Assembly: GCA_030424595.1 (NCBI GenBank)
Contig: JAUHWG010000020.1
Span: 62,001-126,000 of the forward strand
DNA: 64,000 bases
Direction of reading: 5' to 3'
Origin: Polyangia bacterium
GTDB taxonomy: Bacteria > Myxococcota_A > Polyangia > Nannocystales > Nannocystaceae
Positions 455 through 29,136 of this stretch are shown piece after piece. The first letter of the stretch is position 1, and each line of letters begins with the position of its first letter. The notes under the pieces were generated by a model. The model ran no database searches, had not been told where the DNA came from, and was given only the letters and a program-made list of their open reading frames with translations. A program made the translations under genes and the position numbers.

Positions 455-836
455 CGTGCTTCCCTCTTGGTCGCGATCGCGCCCGCGCTATGGACTTGGC
501 CCCTTCGTGGGAGCCTCGTCAGTGGCGGAGTGTAATCGAGGAGGATCGCCAAGCCAAGGGGCTGGAACCCCCGCCCCGACGAAGCGTGGGTCGATCCCCG
601 CCCCCGCAGGCGAGCCCGCGGGGTCCGCTAGACTCTGCCAAAGCCGGCACTAGAGCCCGGTATTCCGGCGTTCCTCGACCGCTGAGAGGCGCCGATGAGC
701 TCGCCGAGCGTGACACGGGACTTTCACCACGGGGCCCGAGGCGGCTATCCCCGCCAGATCGGTGACCCCAGCGTCGATTCCTGGCAACCTGCGGTGCCTA
801 CACCGGGGCCCAAAGACCCCGAAGAACCAACCTCTG
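455..836. other. intergenic DNA, no gene seen
   Basis: A 382-bp stretch between the small minus-strand gene and the outer-membrane protein. It is GC-rich and contains palindromic patches such as the GGGGCTGGAACCCCC region near 556. No credible gene or tRNA fold was found. Confidence 0.4.
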
Positions 837-1823
837 ATGCGCCCACACGCCCGACGGCTGCTCCTCTCCGGTCTCCTCGCGGCCGCCTGGAGCGGGGCCG
901 CGAGCGCAGCCCCTGACCTCGGCCGTGGGACGTCGGCCGAGGTCCCGCTAGAGCCCGCCGCAGCCCCGACGCCGGTGAGCGACGCTCGCTCGGCGCAGCC
1001 GACCGCGGCCGCCGACGTCGTCGCTGCGGATGACGAGCCGCCAGCGACGACGGAGGCCGAGACAGCGAGGCCGCCCAGCGCCGACGCTGGAGCTGACGCG
1101 TCCCCATCACCTGGCCCAAAGGCCTCGTCTTCGGAGAGGGCTCGCCCCCAGGCGAGCCCCCGGAGCGGGCGCGCGCTCGAGCTTGTACCCCGGCAATTCG
1201 GCCTCGAGCTCGGCTGGTCGAACCTCGCGATCGACAACCTCCCGGACGCGCTCATCCCCGACCCCCGACCCCATCCCCACGGCGTCTCCAGCGGCGCGCA
1301 CGTGATGTGGCAGATCGCCGGCCTGAGCCGGCGCTGGCCCACCTGGATCGGCCCTCTGATCGGCCTCGACGTCTTCCCCGCGACCCCCGTCTCACGGCGG
1401 GTCATCGCCGCCAGCTACGGCTTCCAGCTCAAGCACCAGTTCGGACGTCGACCGCGGGTCCGCCCCTTCCTCAGCTACGGCGTCGGCGCGGTCCAAGGCT
1501 GGGTCAAGACGATCCCAGGCCGCGAGATCGGGCACCAGCTCCGGGCGAGCTTCGGCTCCGCCTTCCCGATCGCCAAGCGCAGCTCCCTGACCTTCGCCTT
1601 CGTCTACAAGTACCAGGGTCAGGCGACCTTCCGTTGGGACGACGCGGGGACCCTCGCCTACAACTTTCACACGGTCGGGCTCCTCGCCGGGATCACCTTC
1701 GACGCGCCCGCTCGCCGCGTCCGCCCGCGACATCGCAGCAGGAGCCGGCAGCGACCGAGCCGCCCCGACGACGGGCGAGGCGTTGCCCGCGAGCAGGTCT
1801 TGCCGAGCTCGGGCCGCACCTGA
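837..1823 (+). CDS. outer-membrane beta-barrel-like protein
   Basis: 328 residues. An N-terminal signal peptide (RRLLLSGLLAAAWSGAASAA) is followed by about 90 residues of Ala/Pro/Glu-rich linker. The C-terminal half has alternating polar/hydrophobic strands with aromatic belts (QFGLELGWSNLAI, SYGFQLKHQFG, SYGVGAVQGWV, LTFAFVYKYQG). This looks like an 8-stranded OmpA/OmpW-type barrel. The start at 837 is chosen because the signal peptide begins there; an in-frame ATG at 762 would add 25 unlikely residues. The protein family was not identified. The extreme C-terminus is Arg-rich and may be a low-complexity run-on. Confidence 0.65.
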   Translation: MRPHARRLLLSGLLAAAWSGAASAAPDLGRGTSAEVPLEPAAAPTPVSDARSAQPTAAADVVAADDEPPATTEAETARPPSADAGADASPSPGPKASSSERARPQASPRSGRALELVPRQFGLELGWSNLAIDNLPDALIPDPRPHPHGVSSGAHVMWQIAGLSRRWPTWIGPLIGLDVFPATPVSRRVIAASYGFQLKHQFGRRPRVRPFLSYGVGAVQGWVKTIPGREIGHQLRASFGSAFPIAKRSSLTFAFVYKYQGQATFRWDDAGTLAYNFHTVGLLAGITFDAPARRVRPRHRSRSRQRPSRPDDGRGVAREQVLPSSGRT

Positions 1824-1905: not shown

Positions 1906-2496
1906 TCAGCGGCGCAGCAGCCAGGGCGGCATCCGGCGCTCCGCCCACTCGGGCTCGTCCGCCACGCCGAGGCCCGAGGCGAGCCGGTTGTAGTAATTAA
2001 AGAAGCCGACGATGTGGACGAGCCGGTGGATCGCCGCGTCGGAGAAGCCGTGGGCCCGGAGACGGTCGAGGTCGCCGGGCCGCGCCCGCGACGGGTCGCG
2101 GGTCAGCTTGACGGCGTAGCCTAGGAGCGCCCGGTCTCCGTCCGCCAGCGGCCCCATCACATAGTCGTCCTCGATCGCGTCGGCGATCGCCTGACCGAGC
2201 TCGCTCCCACCTTCGACCTCAGCACGGAGGTCGTCGCCGTGGGCGAGGGTTCAGTACCCGCACTCGTTGGCCCGCGACACCGCGACCGCGATCATCTCGC
2301 GCTGGTCACGACGCAGCGGACCGGGGCCGTGCATCAGCTCCTGATAGAGCTGGACGGACGCGCTCAGGACCCGCGGCTCCACGCTCTGGACGCGGAGCAC
2401 GTTGAAGATCTTGCCCGCCCGGCCGCGGGCAGCCCTGTAGAGACGAGCCAAGAGCCCCTCGGCCTCGGCGGGATCGATCTCGTGGATCCACGACAT
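1906..2496 (-). CDS. AhpD-like/carboxymuconolactone decarboxylase family protein with in-frame UGA (candidate selenoprotein)
   Basis: Reading through the TGA at 2251-2253 gives one 196-residue protein that matches peroxidase-related AhpD-like proteins throughout (starts MSWIHEIDPAEAEG). The TGA falls exactly on the second Cys of the family's redox motif: E78-C79-G80-Y81-[TGA]82-T-L-A-H86, so CxxC becomes CxxU with the conserved His four residues on. The downstream frame stays homologous-looking to the end (VHIVGFFNYYNRLA). A hairpin lies directly after the UGA (see 2200-2247). The start at 2496 is chosen from the family N-terminus and a TATGCT box 7 nt upstream. AhpD-like selenoproteins with CxxU or UxxC are known. 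The protein is likely a cytosolic thiol/selenol peroxidase. A TGC/TGT-to-TGA sequencing error or a pseudogene is the alternative. Confidence 0.75.
2200..2247 (-). promoter_or_regulatory. candidate bacterial SECIS element
   Basis: In the mRNA, a perfect 7-bp stem CGACCUC/GAGGUCG (2233-2227 with 2220-2214) closes a 6-nt loop CGUGCU containing a GU. It begins 17 nt after the UGA, with the loop 24 nt after it. An outer stem is possible: CUCGC and CCAC (2247-2239) pair with GUGG and GCGAG (2210-2200), with a 2-nt bulge. Bacterial SECIS elements sit just downstream of the Sec codon inside the coding region and present a G/U in the apical loop to SelB. Pairing was found by eye and not folded computationally. 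Confidence 0.6.
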
Positions 2497-2503
2497 GGCG
2501 CGG

Positions 2504-2509
2504 AGCATA
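2504..2509 (-). promoter_or_regulatory. -10 box TATGCT for the AhpD-like gene
   Basis: TATGCT on the minus strand ends 7 nt before the ATG at 2496, implying a transcript that begins at or next to the start codon. There is no Shine-Dalgarno sequence. Confidence 0.5.
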
Positions 2510-2580: not shown

Positions 2581-3726
2581 CTACTCGGCGACCGTGGGGT
2601 CGCCCTTCCCTTCACCGGTCGCCCCGGCTCCGCTCCCCGGAGGGTCTGCCGGCCTCCGCCCTTGATGTCCGGTCTGCGGCGGCGGATCGAGCGACCAGAA
2701 GTTCGTCTTCTCGTCGTCGGCCTCCTGCTCGCCGCTGCTCTGGATCCTCGCCCGCAGCCCGGAGTCTGAGGTCGCGACGACGGTCTCCTCGATCGGCTCG
2801 ACGCTGGCGTAGACCGAGATGCTCGCGACAAGCTCCCGGCCCGCCGCGTTCAGGACGATCTGCGCGCTCACGCCGGTACCCTCGAGGGTCGCCAGCCCGA
2901 GCGCCACCAGAAGACCGCCGACCTCGGAGAAGCGCCATGTCTCGGCCGGCGAGGCCCGCTCGCCGAGGCTCACGCCGAGCGCGAAGGCGCTCGCGTGCTC
3001 CAAGAGGAGCCCGTGCAGGGCCCTCTCTCGCCCCTTTCGCAGCTCCGGGACCCGCCGCTCCTCGAGCACCACGAGCCACTGGTCGACGCTGAGCCCGGCG
3101 ATCTCCCGCTCGCCTGTCGGCGCCTCGGCCTCCGTCCCCGGCCGCCGCCGGAGCTCTCGCACCTCCGCCGAGAGACGGGCGAGCTCGGCCGCCACAGCGA
3201 CGTCGACGACCACGCGATCTTCGCGGATCCAACGGTGCACACCGGCGCTGAAGCAGCCGAGGACCCCCTGGAGGACCGCCAGCTTGAGCTCGGCGAGCGA
3301 GGCCGCCTCGGCCGCGCCGGCGTCGACCAGCCGCTGACGCAACACCCTCAGGCGCTCGCCTCGGGCCCCGGAGAGGCGCGGCCCCTGGAGCGCCGACATC
3401 TCCTCGCCGAGGACCACGGTCATCACCGGGATCCCCGCCTCCCGCGCTGCTGCGAGCTCCCGCTCGACCACGCTCTCGCCTGAGGCAGCAATGAAACCTC
3501 CGTCCCCAGCCCCGAGGACGACGAGCAGGAGGTCGCTGCGCCGGAGCCAGGCGGTCGAGGATGCCGGGCTCAGGTCGACGTCCGCCGCGAGCAAGCCGGC
3601 GCCGGCCGGGAGCTGACCGCCGACGAGGAGCGCCTCGATCACCGCCCGCTGCTCCGCGACGAACCCGCGCAGGGAGGCCGCGACATAGACGTGAAGGATC
3701 CCCGAATCGCCCGCTATACCCATCAT
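2581..3726 (-). CDS. DUF4062-like protein
   Basis: 381 residues. The N-terminal about 110 residues fit the DUF4062 pattern: a first strand with VYVAASLRGFVAEQRAVIEALL, then SDLLLVVLGAGDGGF and ERELAAAREAGIPVMTVVLGE, as in Rossmann-like domains related to TIR and nucleoside deoxyribosyltransferase folds. The middle is helical and Arg/Glu-rich. Residues about 215-320 hold a second globular part, and the tail (last 50 residues) is Pro/Gly/Glu-rich and probably disordered. DUF4062 domains often head signalling or defence proteins, but no effector domain is recognisable here. The start may be 3726 or 3723; a TATCAC box lies 5 or 8 nt upstream. Confidence 0.6.
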   Translation of the reverse strand: MMGIAGDSGILHVYVAASLRGFVAEQRAVIEALLVGGQLPAGAGLLAADVDLSPASSTAWLRRSDLLLVVLGAGDGGFIAASGESVVERELAAAREAGIPVMTVVLGEEMSALQGPRLSGARGERLRVLRQRLVDAGAAEAASLAELKLAVLQGVLGCFSAGVHRWIREDRVVVDVAVAAELARLSAEVRELRRRPGTEAEAPTGEREIAGLSVDQWLVVLEERRVPELRKGRERALHGLLLEHASAFALGVSLGERASPAETWRFSEVGGLLVALGLATLEGTGVSAQIVLNAAGRELVASISVYASVEPIEETVVATSDSGLRARIQSSGEQEADDEKTNFWSLDPPPQTGHQGRRPADPPGSGAGATGEGKGDPTVAE

Positions 3727-3898: not shown

Positions 3899-5410
3899 AT
3901 GGCGACCCCCGGATACCGCGAGTTCATCGCCCTCGCGTGGCCGATCGTGCTCGCCCGCTCGGCCCAGGCGGTGATCGGCTTCTCCGACGCGGCGATGGTC
4001 GCCCCCCTCGGCGAGGATGCCCTCGCGGCGACCACCGCCGCGGCGACCAACACCCTCGCGCTCTTCATCCTGCCGATGGGGATCGTCTTCATCGTCCAGA
4101 GCTTCGCCTCGCAGCTCGTCGGCAAGCGCGACCTCGAGGGCGCGCGCCGCTACGCCTACTACGCCCTGATCCTGGCGGCGATCACCCTCGTTCTCTCCTG
4201 CGCGGCGATCCCAGCCCTCGGCTCCTTCGTCGACATGCTCGGCTTCACCCCCGAGGTCCGGGGCCTGATGGCGACCTACATGACGATCCGCTTCGTCGCC
4301 GCGGGGGCGGTCGTCGGCAGCGAGGGGCTGGGAAACTGGTACGCCGGCCTCGGCGACACCAAGGTGGCGATGGCCGCCAACATCATCGCCATGATCGTCA
4401 ACGTGGGCCTCAACTGGGTCCTGATCTACGGCAACCTCGGCGCCCCCGCGCTCGGGGTCGAGGGCGCCGCGTGGGCCAGCGTCATCGCCTCCTGGGTCGG
4501 CTTCGCCGCGATCGCGGCCTACTTCGCCGTCGACCGCGGCCGCCGCGTTCTCGCGGTGATCGCCGCGAACGGCGAGCCCGAGCACCCAGGGACGACCGCG
4601 CCCGCCGACTCGGACGCCTCGACCGCCTCGATCCACGGCGCATCCCTGACCGCCGAGCCGGAGAGCGCTCATACGCCGCGAGGGTCCCCGCGCTCCAGCT
4701 CCGCCCGGCGAGGCCTCTCGTGGGCCGAGTTTCGCCGGATGATCCGCTTTGGCCTGCCCAACGGGTTCAACTGGTTCCTCGAGTTCTCGGCCTTCCTCGT
4801 CTTCATCAACGTCATCTTCGCCGACCTCGGGACCTCTGCGGTCGCCGCCCTGATGGCCGTGATGCAGGTGAACTCCGTCTCCTTCATGCCGGCGTTCGGG
4901 CTCACCACCGCCGGAGCGATCCTCGTCGGCCAAGCGATCGGCCGCGACGGCCACGACGAGGTCCCGCGGATCGTCCTCCGCACGCTCTCTCTGACGATGA
5001 CCTGGCAGGGGCTGGTCGGCGTCGGCTACCTCCTCTTCCCGGCCGCGCTGATGGCGATCTTCACCGCCGAGGGCGAGTCCGCGGAGACCAGCTCGGTCGC
5101 CCTCCTCGGCGCCACATTGCTGGCGATCTCCGCGGCCTGGCAGCTCTTCGACGCCTTCGTCATGACCCTCAACGAGGCGCTCCGCGCCGCGGGCGACACC
5201 GCCTGGTGCCTCTGGGCCCGGGTCGCGACCGCGTGGCTCGTCTGGCTGCCGCTGACCTACGCGGTGGTCAGCGTGATCTATGTGGGCAGCGCTCCAGCGG
5301 CGATGTGGTGCATGGTCACCTACTTCGTCTTCCTCAGCCTTGTGATCGGCTGGCGCTTCCGATCCGGCGCCTGGCGCCGCATTCAGCTCACGGAGACGCA
5401 CGTGACCTGA
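3899..5410 (+). CDS. MATE family multidrug/Na+ antiporter-type efflux protein
   Basis: 503 residues with about twelve hydrophobic segments in the two-bundle MATE layout. Examples are the N-terminal FIALAWPIVLARSAQAVIGF with downstream DAAMVAPLGEDALAA, and the second-half counterpart IRFGLPNGFNWFLEFSAFLVF. This inner-membrane exporter moves cationic compounds outward using a Na+ or H+ gradient. A charged Ser/Pro/Glu-rich cytoplasmic insert of about 55 residues lies between the two bundles (about residues 220-275), longer than usual. The gene is transcribed alone. The start at 3899 is the first ATG before the first helix. Confidence 0.88.
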   Translation: MATPGYREFIALAWPIVLARSAQAVIGFSDAAMVAPLGEDALAATTAAATNTLALFILPMGIVFIVQSFASQLVGKRDLEGARRYAYYALILAAITLVLSCAAIPALGSFVDMLGFTPEVRGLMATYMTIRFVAAGAVVGSEGLGNWYAGLGDTKVAMAANIIAMIVNVGLNWVLIYGNLGAPALGVEGAAWASVIASWVGFAAIAAYFAVDRGRRVLAVIAANGEPEHPGTTAPADSDASTASIHGASLTAEPESAHTPRGSPRSSSARRGLSWAEFRRMIRFGLPNGFNWFLEFSAFLVFINVIFADLGTSAVAALMAVMQVNSVSFMPAFGLTTAGAILVGQAIGRDGHDEVPRIVLRTLSLTMTWQGLVGVGYLLFPAALMAIFTAEGESAETSSVALLGATLLAISAAWQLFDAFVMTLNEALRAAGDTAWCLWARVATAWLVWLPLTYAVVSVIYVGSAPAAMWCMVTYFVFLSLVIGWRFRSGAWRRIQLTETHVT

Positions 5411-5920: not shown

Positions 5921-7468
5921 ATGAGGATCTCTTCCTATCCGATTATTCTTGCCACCGTATCTTCTTGGCTGGTCGCGGGGTGCACCGGCCAGTGCATCGA
6001 TGACGGCTTCGCCGGCAGCCAGCAGAAGGAAGCTTGCCTCACCGGCGCGAGCGCGACCGAGACCGCGAGCACCTCCGAGTCGAACAGCGAGAGCGAGAGC
6101 GCCTCGGTCTCCGTCTCCGTCTCCGTGACCGCGACGATGGGCTCGATGAGCGCTTCGGCGACCTCGACCGCGACCAACACCGCGACCGCGACCAACACCA
6201 ACACCGCGACCGACACCAACACCGCGGGCGGGACCGAGTGGTGCGCCGACAAGGACAATGACGGCTACGGCGATCCCGACGATTGCATCCCGGGCACCCC
6301 CGGCGAGGAGCCGCCGGACGGCTACGTCGAGGGCGGCGACGAGGGCAAGGAGGACTGCGACGACGCCGATCCGAACACCTTCCCCGGCGCCGCCGAGAAG
6401 GACGATCCCGAGGCTTGCATGACCGACGCCGACGACGACGGCTACGGCGACGAGAAACCGTCGAACCCCGACGCCGTCCCCGGCTCCGACTGTGACGACG
6501 CGGCCGCCGACACCTTCCCTGGCTCCGCCGAGAACGAGGACGCGTCCCTGTGCACCAAGGACTCCGACGACGACGGCTTCGGCGACGACGCCCCGGAGAA
6601 CCCCGACGTCGACGCCGGCACCGACTGCGACGACAGCGACGGCTTCACCTTCCCCGGCTCCGCCGAGCTCGAGAGCGAGACCGAGTGCATGCGCGACGAG
6701 GACGGCGACGGCTACGGCGACGCCAGCGTCCCCGAGGGTGTGGTCGGCGGGGCTGACTGCTTCGACGCCAACGCCGAGCTCAACCCCGGCAACCAGCTCC
6801 TCTTCTCGGTCCTCGACGGCGGCGACATCAGCGAGGTCAACGTCGACACCGGAGAGCTTACCGAGATCGGCCTCGTCGACATCCTCGGCCTCGAGGGCGA
6901 GTGGAGCGTGATCTCGGCGAGCGTCTCCCCCGACAACGGCATGACCTACGTCGCCAACGCCGCCCAGAACCGCCTGGCGATGATCGACTACTGCGCCGGC
7001 GGGGTGCCCACCGAGCTCCTGGTCCACGGCCGCTCGATCTGCGGCCTCTCCTTCGACGCCGAGTCCGTCCTCTACGGGGTCGACTCGAACGCCGACGAGC
7101 TCGTCACCTTCGACACCGCGACCGGCAGCGTCCTGACCGCCCTGCCCATCACCCTCGACGATGAGGTCGTCAACATCGGCGCCTGCGGTATGGCCTTCGA
7201 CTGCGCCTCGAACAACCTGCTGGTCTCGGACAGCCTGCAAAAGCGGCTCCTCAGCGTCGACCCGGTGACCGGCGTCGCCACGGTCGCCGCGACCCTCGAG
7301 GTCGCCCCCGGGGCCGGGCTCGCCTACGACGCGCTCAGCAAGTCGGTCCTCAGCAACAGCCTCAAGTCGCTCTACCTGATCGCGATCGACGGCTCCAACA
7401 CCGCAGAGCTCAAGTCGACCCTGGCGAGCAGCGTCAACGACCTCGACTTCGGGCCTATCTGCGAGTAG
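5921..7468 (+). CDS. MopE-like lipoprotein with Ser/Thr linker and beta-propeller-like C-terminus
   Basis: 515 residues. A lipoprotein signal ends at VAGC. It is followed by a Ser/Thr/Glu/Asn low-complexity linker of about 55 residues. Then come four Asp-rich repeats of the type D-x-D-x-D-G-Y-G-D...C-D-D-A-D-x-x-x-x-F-P-G, as in the MopE/thrombospondin-3-like metal-binding motif. The C-terminal about 220 residues are repetitive beta strands (VLDGGDISEVNVDTGEL, MTYVANAAQNRLAMID) resembling a propeller. It is probably anchored at the cell surface and binds Ca2+ or Cu; the partner is unknown. A TATCTT box 8 nt before the ATG suggests a leaderless mRNA. Confidence 0.72.
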   Translation: MRISSYPIILATVSSWLVAGCTGQCIDDGFAGSQQKEACLTGASATETASTSESNSESESASVSVSVSVTATMGSMSASATSTATNTATATNTNTATDTNTAGGTEWCADKDNDGYGDPDDCIPGTPGEEPPDGYVEGGDEGKEDCDDADPNTFPGAAEKDDPEACMTDADDDGYGDEKPSNPDAVPGSDCDDAAADTFPGSAENEDASLCTKDSDDDGFGDDAPENPDVDAGTDCDDSDGFTFPGSAELESETECMRDEDGDGYGDASVPEGVVGGADCFDANAELNPGNQLLFSVLDGGDISEVNVDTGELTEIGLVDILGLEGEWSVISASVSPDNGMTYVANAAQNRLAMIDYCAGGVPTELLVHGRSICGLSFDAESVLYGVDSNADELVTFDTATGSVLTALPITLDDEVVNIGACGMAFDCASNNLLVSDSLQKRLLSVDPVTGVATVAATLEVAPGAGLAYDALSKSVLSNSLKSLYLIAIDGSNTAELKSTLASSVNDLDFGPICE

Positions 7469-28629: not shown

Positions 28630-29136
28630 ATGACTGATACCCCCGAAAACGTCAAGGCCGAGCTGAGCCGCGGCGCCGTCAACCTCGAGGTGGATCCGTC
28701 GATCTACCCCCTCGGGGCGATCTACGGCGCCGCCTACATCTTCATCGATCGCTGCTACGTCTTCCTCTACCGACCCTCGGAGACGAGCCTGCGGATCACG
28801 CTCCAGACCAAGGAGCCGGAGCCCGCCGAGGAGACCCTGCGGGCGCTGGTCGGCGAATTCTCCAACGAGCTCCTCTCCTGCGCCTGGCGCCGTCAGATCA
28901 CCGAGGAGAACCGGGAGCTGATCCAGGCCGTCACCTCAAAGGCGCTCTCCGGGGCGATGGGCTCGCCCTCCCTCGACGACCTCGCCGACTTCGACTTCTC
29001 CGACGACGAGTTCGAGGACCCGCTGGGGATCGCCCAGTCCTGGGAGGAGAAGCACGGGCGCAAGACGCCGAAGGAGCCCGCTGAGGCCCCCGCCGAAGCG
29101 GCCGCGACGCCCGAGGGCGAGGGGGCCGACTCGTGA
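28630..29136 (+). CDS. hxsD: His-Xaa-Ser system protein HxsD
   Basis: 168 residues. The N-terminal 90 residues match the HxsD pattern: VDPSIYPLGAIYGAAYIFIDRCYVFLYR, then VGEFSNELLSCAWRRQITEENRELIQAV. The C-terminal 60 residues are acidic and Ala/Pro/Glu-rich, a longer tail than usual. HxsD proteins accompany the radical SAM maturases HxsB and HxsC in a peptide-maturation system; their own biochemical role is not settled. The gene overlaps the next one by 4 bp (GTGA). The start at 28630 is preferred over an upstream in-frame start at 28609. Confidence 0.72.
   Translation: MTDTPENVKAELSRGAVNLEVDPSIYPLGAIYGAAYIFIDRCYVFLYRPSETSLRITLQTKEPEPAEETLRALVGEFSNELLSCAWRRQITEENRELIQAVTSKALSGAMGSPSLDDLADFDFSDDEFEDPLGIAQSWEEKHGRKTPKEPAEAPAEAAATPEGEGADS

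Follow-up and report, generated by a model that had tools for sequence, protein, structure and literature searches.

An in-frame UGA in the redox motif of an AhpD-like (TIGR01926) gene is very probably read as selenocysteine

Does the TGA at the redox motif of an AhpD-like gene end a short protein, or is it decoded as selenocysteine (Sec) within a longer one? Mechanical ORF finding in the stretch of DNA analysed here (64,000 nucleotides of a Polyangia genome, hereafter the window) yields two pieces, 2251-2508 (85 aa) and 1906-2160 (84 aa). Translated from ATG 2496, the frame is broken once only, by TGA 2253-2251, and is then open to TGA 1908-1906; the read-through product has 196 aa with Sec82. 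On the minus strand the motif context is NECGY-U-TLAHGDDLRAEV, that is N-E-C-G-Y-[TGA]-T-L-A-H. The sequence, the translation and the Cys/Sec column in relatives bear out the original prediction that this TGA replaces the second Cys of a CxxC motif. We consider it very probable that UGA 2251-2253 is decoded as Sec in a TIGR01926 (COG2128) AhpD-like gene, whose main features are:

1906..2496, minus strand: predicted AhpD-like (TIGR01926) selenoprotein gene, ATG 2496-2494, 196 codons, stop TGA 1908-1906 (from translation, profile scores and the starts of relatives).
2251..2253, minus strand: in-frame UGA, predicted Sec82, second position of CxxU; the same codon in 80/80 best relatives (of 492), Cys in 26/90 class loci.

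Of the other TGAs in the window, two came through the same filter on base composition, 3481-3483 (+) and 28893-28895 (-), both without a CxxU motif; the former is antisense to ORF 2581-3726 and the latter has an atypical codon-position profile. Rfam gave no matches and ARAGORN no tRNAs in the 64-kb window.

The family assignment rests on profile scores of 129.5 bits for TIGR01926 "peroxidase-related enzyme" (cut-off 81.8; residues 6-187 of the read from 2508) and 39.2 bits for Pfam CMD (cut-off 23). The earlier label "AhpD-like" therefore needs refinement: it holds in the sense of the TIGR01926/COG2128 peroxidase-related subfamily, and the protein is not a canonical AhpD. With the UGA read as Sec, the product would be a 196-residue all-helical AhpD-like protein. 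An AlphaFold2 model built from 19 aligned sequences (pLDDT 90.2) best matches the structures 2prr, 6k40, 2oyo, 2pfx and 3c1l (Z 21.5-22.4, 177-181 residues, 28-33% identity), followed by S. pneumoniae AhpD 6e8l and the debrominase Bmp8 (Z 19.6-19.9). Presumably, 6k40 is DR_1765 of D. radiodurans. In AhpD, the attacking residue is Cys133, the second Cys of the motif, for which Sec82 would stand. The window protein has the Glu-x11-Cys-x-x-Cys/Sec-x3-His site in an AhpD fold, and all 19 aligned sequences share its residues Glu67, Cys79, Sec82 and His86, apart from the Sec/Cys exchange:

2260..2262, minus strand: Cys79, first CxxU residue, invariant in 19/19.
2239..2241, minus strand: His86, equivalent of the AhpD proton-relay His137 (PMC3141380), invariant in 19/19.
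2296..2298, minus strand: Glu67, equivalent of the AhpD proton-relay Glu118 (PMC3141380), invariant in 19/19.

As described in the passages on AhpD in PMC3141380, the relay residues there are Glu118, Cys130, Cys133 and His137, and the distance from Glu to the first Cys, 12 residues, is the same as in the window protein. By analogy with Cys homologues, Glu67 and His86 would activate Sec82 and relay protons, Sec82 would attack either a hydroperoxide or the disulfide of a partner, and its resolution by Cys79 would give a selenenylsulfide, which a dithiol reductant would reopen. We consider a role in peroxide and thiol redox defence probable for this gene.

A tentative and less likely alternative is that the selenoprotein has a job other than peroxide reduction, for example on a halogenated substrate like Bmp8 or as a partner disulfide reductase. 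The model and Bmp8 (6ohi, 6ohj) align structurally over 178 residues (Z 19.6-19.7), although identity is only 14-15%. Bmp8 uses its Cys pair and deiodinases use Sec, which also counts for such a job. The review PMC8945050, in its passages on these proteins, cuts both ways: AhpD is described there as able to give AhpC electrons, whereas the AhpD-like DR_1765 of D. radiodurans gives CxxC-dependent protection against H2O2. Returning to a role in peroxide and thiol redox defence, we infer both Sec insertion and enzyme activity for the window protein, and the two mechanically read ORFs become one predicted selenium-dependent redox enzyme.

The occupancy of the TGA column in relatives was determined in two samples. 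Of 289 genomes searched in the window's class, 133 gave matches, and 90 class loci were classified, comprising the best 89 matches (own gene included) and a paralogue in the own genome. Their last CxxC position is TGA in 62 and Cys in 26; two loci (L071, L108) are without C-x-x-[U/C] and were excluded from the U/C comparison. A scan of genome contigs with a single peptide pattern, itself taken from Sec forms, ranked loci by similarity, giving a sample that is not random; among the best 80 of its 492 relatives, TGA stands at this position in 80/80 (79 by script, L165 by hand). In both samples the column is thus Cys or Sec, as had been anticipated. L165, labelled Phycisphaerales, has an Ala/Pro-rich insertion 3' of the SECIS region. 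Past the TGA, the frame runs on with family-like sequence to a normal stop and is conserved up to the family's C-terminal region in the 19-sequence alignment; a lack of conservation downstream, sought in this alignment of relatives, is not what we see.

By record label, the 80 TGA loci span seven phyla, many of the records being metagenome bins. Within these best 80 of 492, the labels are Planctomycetota (29), Acidobacteriota (22), Myxococcota (12; Nannocystis, Enhygromyxa and others), Chloroflexota (6), Bdellovibrionota, Actinomycetota and Latescibacterota (1 each), and 8 are unlabelled. Nannocystis and related Myxococcota have such genes, as do genomes with the labels Planctomycetota, Acidobacteriota and Chloroflexota. 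The pattern C-x-Y-[TGA/TGC/TGT] followed by a SECIS-type peptide has matches in 6 of 377 phylum genomes, window included, and all six carry TGA. A tree of 156 rows was built by a quick method (58 of its 153 inner branches are drawn open). It places the window next to L115 (75% identity) and within a clade of 30 rows that are all Sec forms (SH-aLRT 99). The Sec/Cys label changes eight times on the best tree and three times when well-supported branches alone are counted. Both this tree and the 86-sequence hairpin alignment used below omit L165 and eleven class loci that duplicate named loci.

Decoding UGA as Sec requires dedicated machinery, and a genome without it would have spoken against the original prediction; selA, selB, selD and tRNA-Sec are all four present in the own genome (9.54 Mb, 65 contigs, 93% complete). 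The tRNA-Sec scores 77.5 bits and is called tRNA-SeC with anticodon tca by ARAGORN, the second-best match of the search being an ordinary tRNA-Ser. The genes selA (393 bits), selB (270.6 bits, or 296.8 with a neighbour piece) and selD (327.3 bits) form one cluster on contig C5 (25060-29765). With these genes, SelA and SelD would make Sec-tRNA(Sec), and SelB, bound to a hairpin 17 nt downstream of the UGA, would deliver it. The selD gene (L048, C5:28815-29765) has one in-frame TGA of its own (...GGGUAAKLRHG...), and the SelD of this genome is probably also a selenoprotein.

SelA and the Sec form of the gene occur together across the class. SelA matches were found in 135 of the 289 class genomes, of which 130 are treated as SelA-positive; the weak-match genomes G003, G017, G152, G198 and G202, none of which holds a classified locus, were counted negative. 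SelA-positive genomes hold 59 of the 62 Sec loci versus 11 of the 26 Cys loci or, counted by genome, 48 of 51 genomes with a Sec locus are SelA-positive versus 6 of 20 with Cys only. The three Sec loci in genomes without a SelA match belong to G130 (71% complete), G162 (73%) and G178 (96%). Among these, tRNA-Sec is above the cut-off of 47 bits in G178 only, the best tRNA-Sec-like matches in G130 and G162 reaching 43.7 and 40.2 bits.

The second ingredient of bacterial Sec insertion is an RNA element directly after the codon, and a candidate is found here:

2214..2233, minus strand: putative bSECIS hairpin, stem 2233-2227 / 2220-2214, loop 2226-2221 (CGUGCU), supported by conservation, covariation and specificity to Sec forms.

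The stem is a perfect 7 bp that begins 17 nt after the UGA, the loop begins 24 nt after it, and the isolated hairpin has -10.2 kcal/mol. The bacterial SECIS model, as given in the relevant part of PMC13188914, has a loop of 3-9 nt that starts 16-37 nt after the UGA and carries a G at its first or second position, a stem of 4-16 bp and an MFE of at most -7.5; the window agrees throughout (a 6-nt loop at 24 nt with G as its second base, 7 bp, -10.2 kcal/mol). The 7-bp GC hairpin with a hexaloop that had been proposed at 17 nt from the UGA was recovered by a script using these published constraints, and it is conserved and covarying. The possible outer stem proposed with it fared less well: some flanking bases do pair when the window sequence is folded on its own, but a conserved outer stem is rejected because the RNAalifold consensus of 86 sequences keeps the inner stem only, with 6/7 pairs.

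For the window alone, the hairpin is not significant, as 27% of synonymous shuffles reach its score, and a comparable hairpin with a somewhat lower score also lies 3' of the true stop. By itself, the hairpin therefore proves little in this GC-rich DNA, and at the level of sequence the case for a SECIS rests on conservation across relatives. With a threshold of at least 6 bp and a score of at least 14, a bSECIS-like hairpin is present in 127 of 130 Sec forms from all clades versus 2 of 26 Cys forms (the named copies of eleven duplicate pairs being left out of this comparison), three Sec forms having none at this threshold. A synonymous-shuffle test on the bSECIS constraints separates Sec from Cys forms better than one on MFE (p 1.3e-9), with values of 5% or less in 31/130 Sec and 0/26 Cys forms. 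The corresponding MFE test on the 45 nt after the codon is weak because shuffles of GC-rich DNA fold too: values of 5% or less occur in 5/62 Sec and 0/26 Cys forms (Mann-Whitney Sec vs Cys p 0.0035), and the window has z -0.11.

Hairpin geometry varies among the Sec forms. In L031, L146 and L157, a hairpin further upstream, around GATCTCC, apparently replaces the stem that is usual in the clade, and other CMD/AhpD-like Sec clades of the class (L054-L107, e.g. L055, L097) have different geometries. Loops that begin 17 nt after the codon are of 4 nt in 20 rows and of 3 nt in 19 rows, versus the combination of 24 nt and a 6-nt loop in 66 rows.

Covariation was assessed in an alignment of 86 Sec sequences (the window, 6 class loci and 79 named loci; 77 distinct), which is gapless from the TGA and covers the window's clade and near rows, without the other Sec clades of the class. 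Standard pairs occupy 94.2% of stem cells versus 88.2 in shuffled alignments (0/500 as high), and the covariation score is 0.219 versus 0.118 shuffled (0/500), slid versions of the stem reaching at most 0.088. By a weaker measure, three pairs are changed on both sides, a number matched by 53/500 shuffles. All seven pairs can form in 62/86 sequences and at least five in 84/86; the outermost pair is unpaired in 21 of the 77 distinct sequences. When single sequences are folded over the 45 nt after the TGA, at least 5/7 stem pairs appear in 65/86 and 21 fold otherwise. The clearest column pair, 24/37, is C-G in 59 sequences, U-A in 14 and U-G in 4, mostly reflecting GAC/GTC versus GAT/ATC, a silent Asp change tied to a Val-Ile exchange. 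On the tree this pair changes about 12 times with only four independent pairs on well-supported branches; an average of 3.6 of these 4 agree in direction and none runs counter, whereas columns 21/40 are weak in the same tree-aware test (1.6 of 4 in agreement). Four independent pairs per column pair are too few for p < 0.05.

These data also bear on explanations that do without Sec. It is very improbable that the UGA is read otherwise, by near-cognate read-through or by genome-wide reassignment to Trp or Cys: the frame would be open under any sense reading of TGA, but the gene itself terminates with TGA, C-x-x-[TGA or Cys] describes 88 of the 90 class loci (the script sought those residues alone), the genome has dedicated Sec machinery, and the hairpin beside the codon shows nucleotide-level conservation. 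Still less probable is a pseudogene, nonsense mutation or sequencing error that leaves an 81-residue fragment only, as the split ORF listing would have it, given that the TGA is kept in 80/80 of the best relatives (the nearest 80 of 492, not a random draw), that the sequence after it is conserved and that the hairpin is conserved and covarying. Conservation and the Sec machinery lead us to reject a pseudogene, a sequencing error and a genome-wide reassignment of TGA.

The hairpin also constrains synonymous codons. Codon choice within it departs from usage elsewhere in the 79 named genes: the Leu codon is CTC in 75/77 versus 36%, the Val/Ile codon is GTG in 1/77 versus 41% of Val, and the Arg codon is CGG or CGT in 75/77 versus 42%. 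The start of the gene has a conserved feature of its own:

2504..2509, minus strand: putative -10 element TATGCT, ending 7 nt before the ATG (from the position of TANNNT across 78 genes).

ATG 2496 matches the starts of the aligned relatives (19-sequence alignment). Of the 78 genes with a recognisable start, window included, 19 (the window and 18 relatives) have a TANNNT whose end lies 6 or 7 nt upstream of the start codon; no other distance between 0 and 69 nt is shared by more than 3. Both parts of the earlier proposal, a start at 2496 and a -10 box of its own, gain from this comparison, the start being shared with relatives and TATGCT being backed by TANNNT conservation. The window gene has no SD-like motif, which 24/78 genes have, and at 1700-2700 neither a two-hexamer sigma-70 promoter nor a terminator consensus was found. 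Because the -10 box lies so close to the ATG, we suggest that the mRNA is probably leaderless, transcribed from the box directly before the ATG.

An evenly balanced conjecture is that the window's TIGR01926 clade is an essentially Sec-only, multi-phylum lineage in which the SECIS has fixed a D-L-R-x-E-[V/I] peptide and many mRNAs are leaderless. The peptide after the motif would then exist because its codons must form the hairpin. If so, SelB would work without a 5' leader in many members, and an RNA signal would influence, across phyla, which amino acids stand in an active-site helix. The SECIS-coded peptide offers a simple search motif for mis-annotated members and a clear example of a protein sequence under constraint from an RNA element in its own frame.

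The neighbourhood of the gene was compared by eye at 8 loci (ORFs of at least 110 aa with GC3 > 0.7), and no neighbour is common to them. In the window, the two adjoining ORFs, 2581-3726 and 762-1823 (+), have no Pfam match, and ORF 3899-5407 is MatE (Pfam). ORF 5921-7468 (+) looks secreted and is Ser/Thr-rich with D-x-D-x-D-G-Y-G-D repeats and a weak DUF6923 match. The Pfam-less gene at 762-1823, convergent to the selenoprotein gene, is signal-peptide-like, and a similar-looking gene (similarity by eye only) occupies the same place in the sister genome (L115, 1751-2683, minus strand). Because no shared neighbour was seen at the 8 loci compared by eye, and in view of the Pfam scan of four window ORFs, we propose no partner enzyme.

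Among known systems, canonical AhpD of M. tuberculosis (1knc, 1gu9; TIGR00777) has the same catalytic spacing (PMC3141380, in its account of the relay) but differs in its fold match (Z 12.5-12.8) and identity (12-13%), and the window protein has no TIGR00777 match at E 1e-3. The Cys-form peroxidase-related proteins 2prr, 6k40 (D. radiodurans), 2oyo, 2pfx and 3c1l share the fold (Z 21.5-22.4); in 2pfx and 2oyo, the CxxC aligns with the window's motif region, the second Cys being Sec in the window protein. Two NCBIfam families with (seleno)protein names, NF041238 AhpD_rel_CFYUT and NF053654 YciW-related, both match at E < 1e-3, with scores of 40.6 bits (cut-off 175 for the NF041238 equivalog) and 19.6 bits (cut-off 310), which place the window protein in neither.

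Because "AhpD-like, COG2128, CXXU" was described in earlier selenoproteomes, the window gene's kind is already known. The Sargasso Sea selenoproteome listed 27 sequences under "AhpD-like protein, COG2128, CXXU" (PMC1088965, 2005), followed by 2 AhpD-like COG2128 CxxU sequences (PMC1794560, 2006) and 299 sequences of AhpD-like 1 (PMC2398784, 2008), and TIGR01926 appears with CxxU in Table 1 of a 2026 review (PMC13188914). In the passages of this literature that deal with AhpD-like CxxU proteins, the D-L-R-x-E-V peptide, the Val-Ile covariation and the leaderless -10 element are unmentioned. A search of the open-access literature, which carries no evidence on other journals, found no paper on a selenoprotein or selenocysteine in Myxococcota or Nannocystis. 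The window gene is a further CxxU AhpD-like (COG2128/TIGR01926) selenoprotein, of a kind in print since 2005, and has in common with the published forms the profile family, the CxxU motif and a UGA followed by a bSECIS hairpin. Nothing categorical separates it from them; what its clade has is the D-L-R-x-E-V peptide together with the hairpin at 24 nt with a 6-nt loop.
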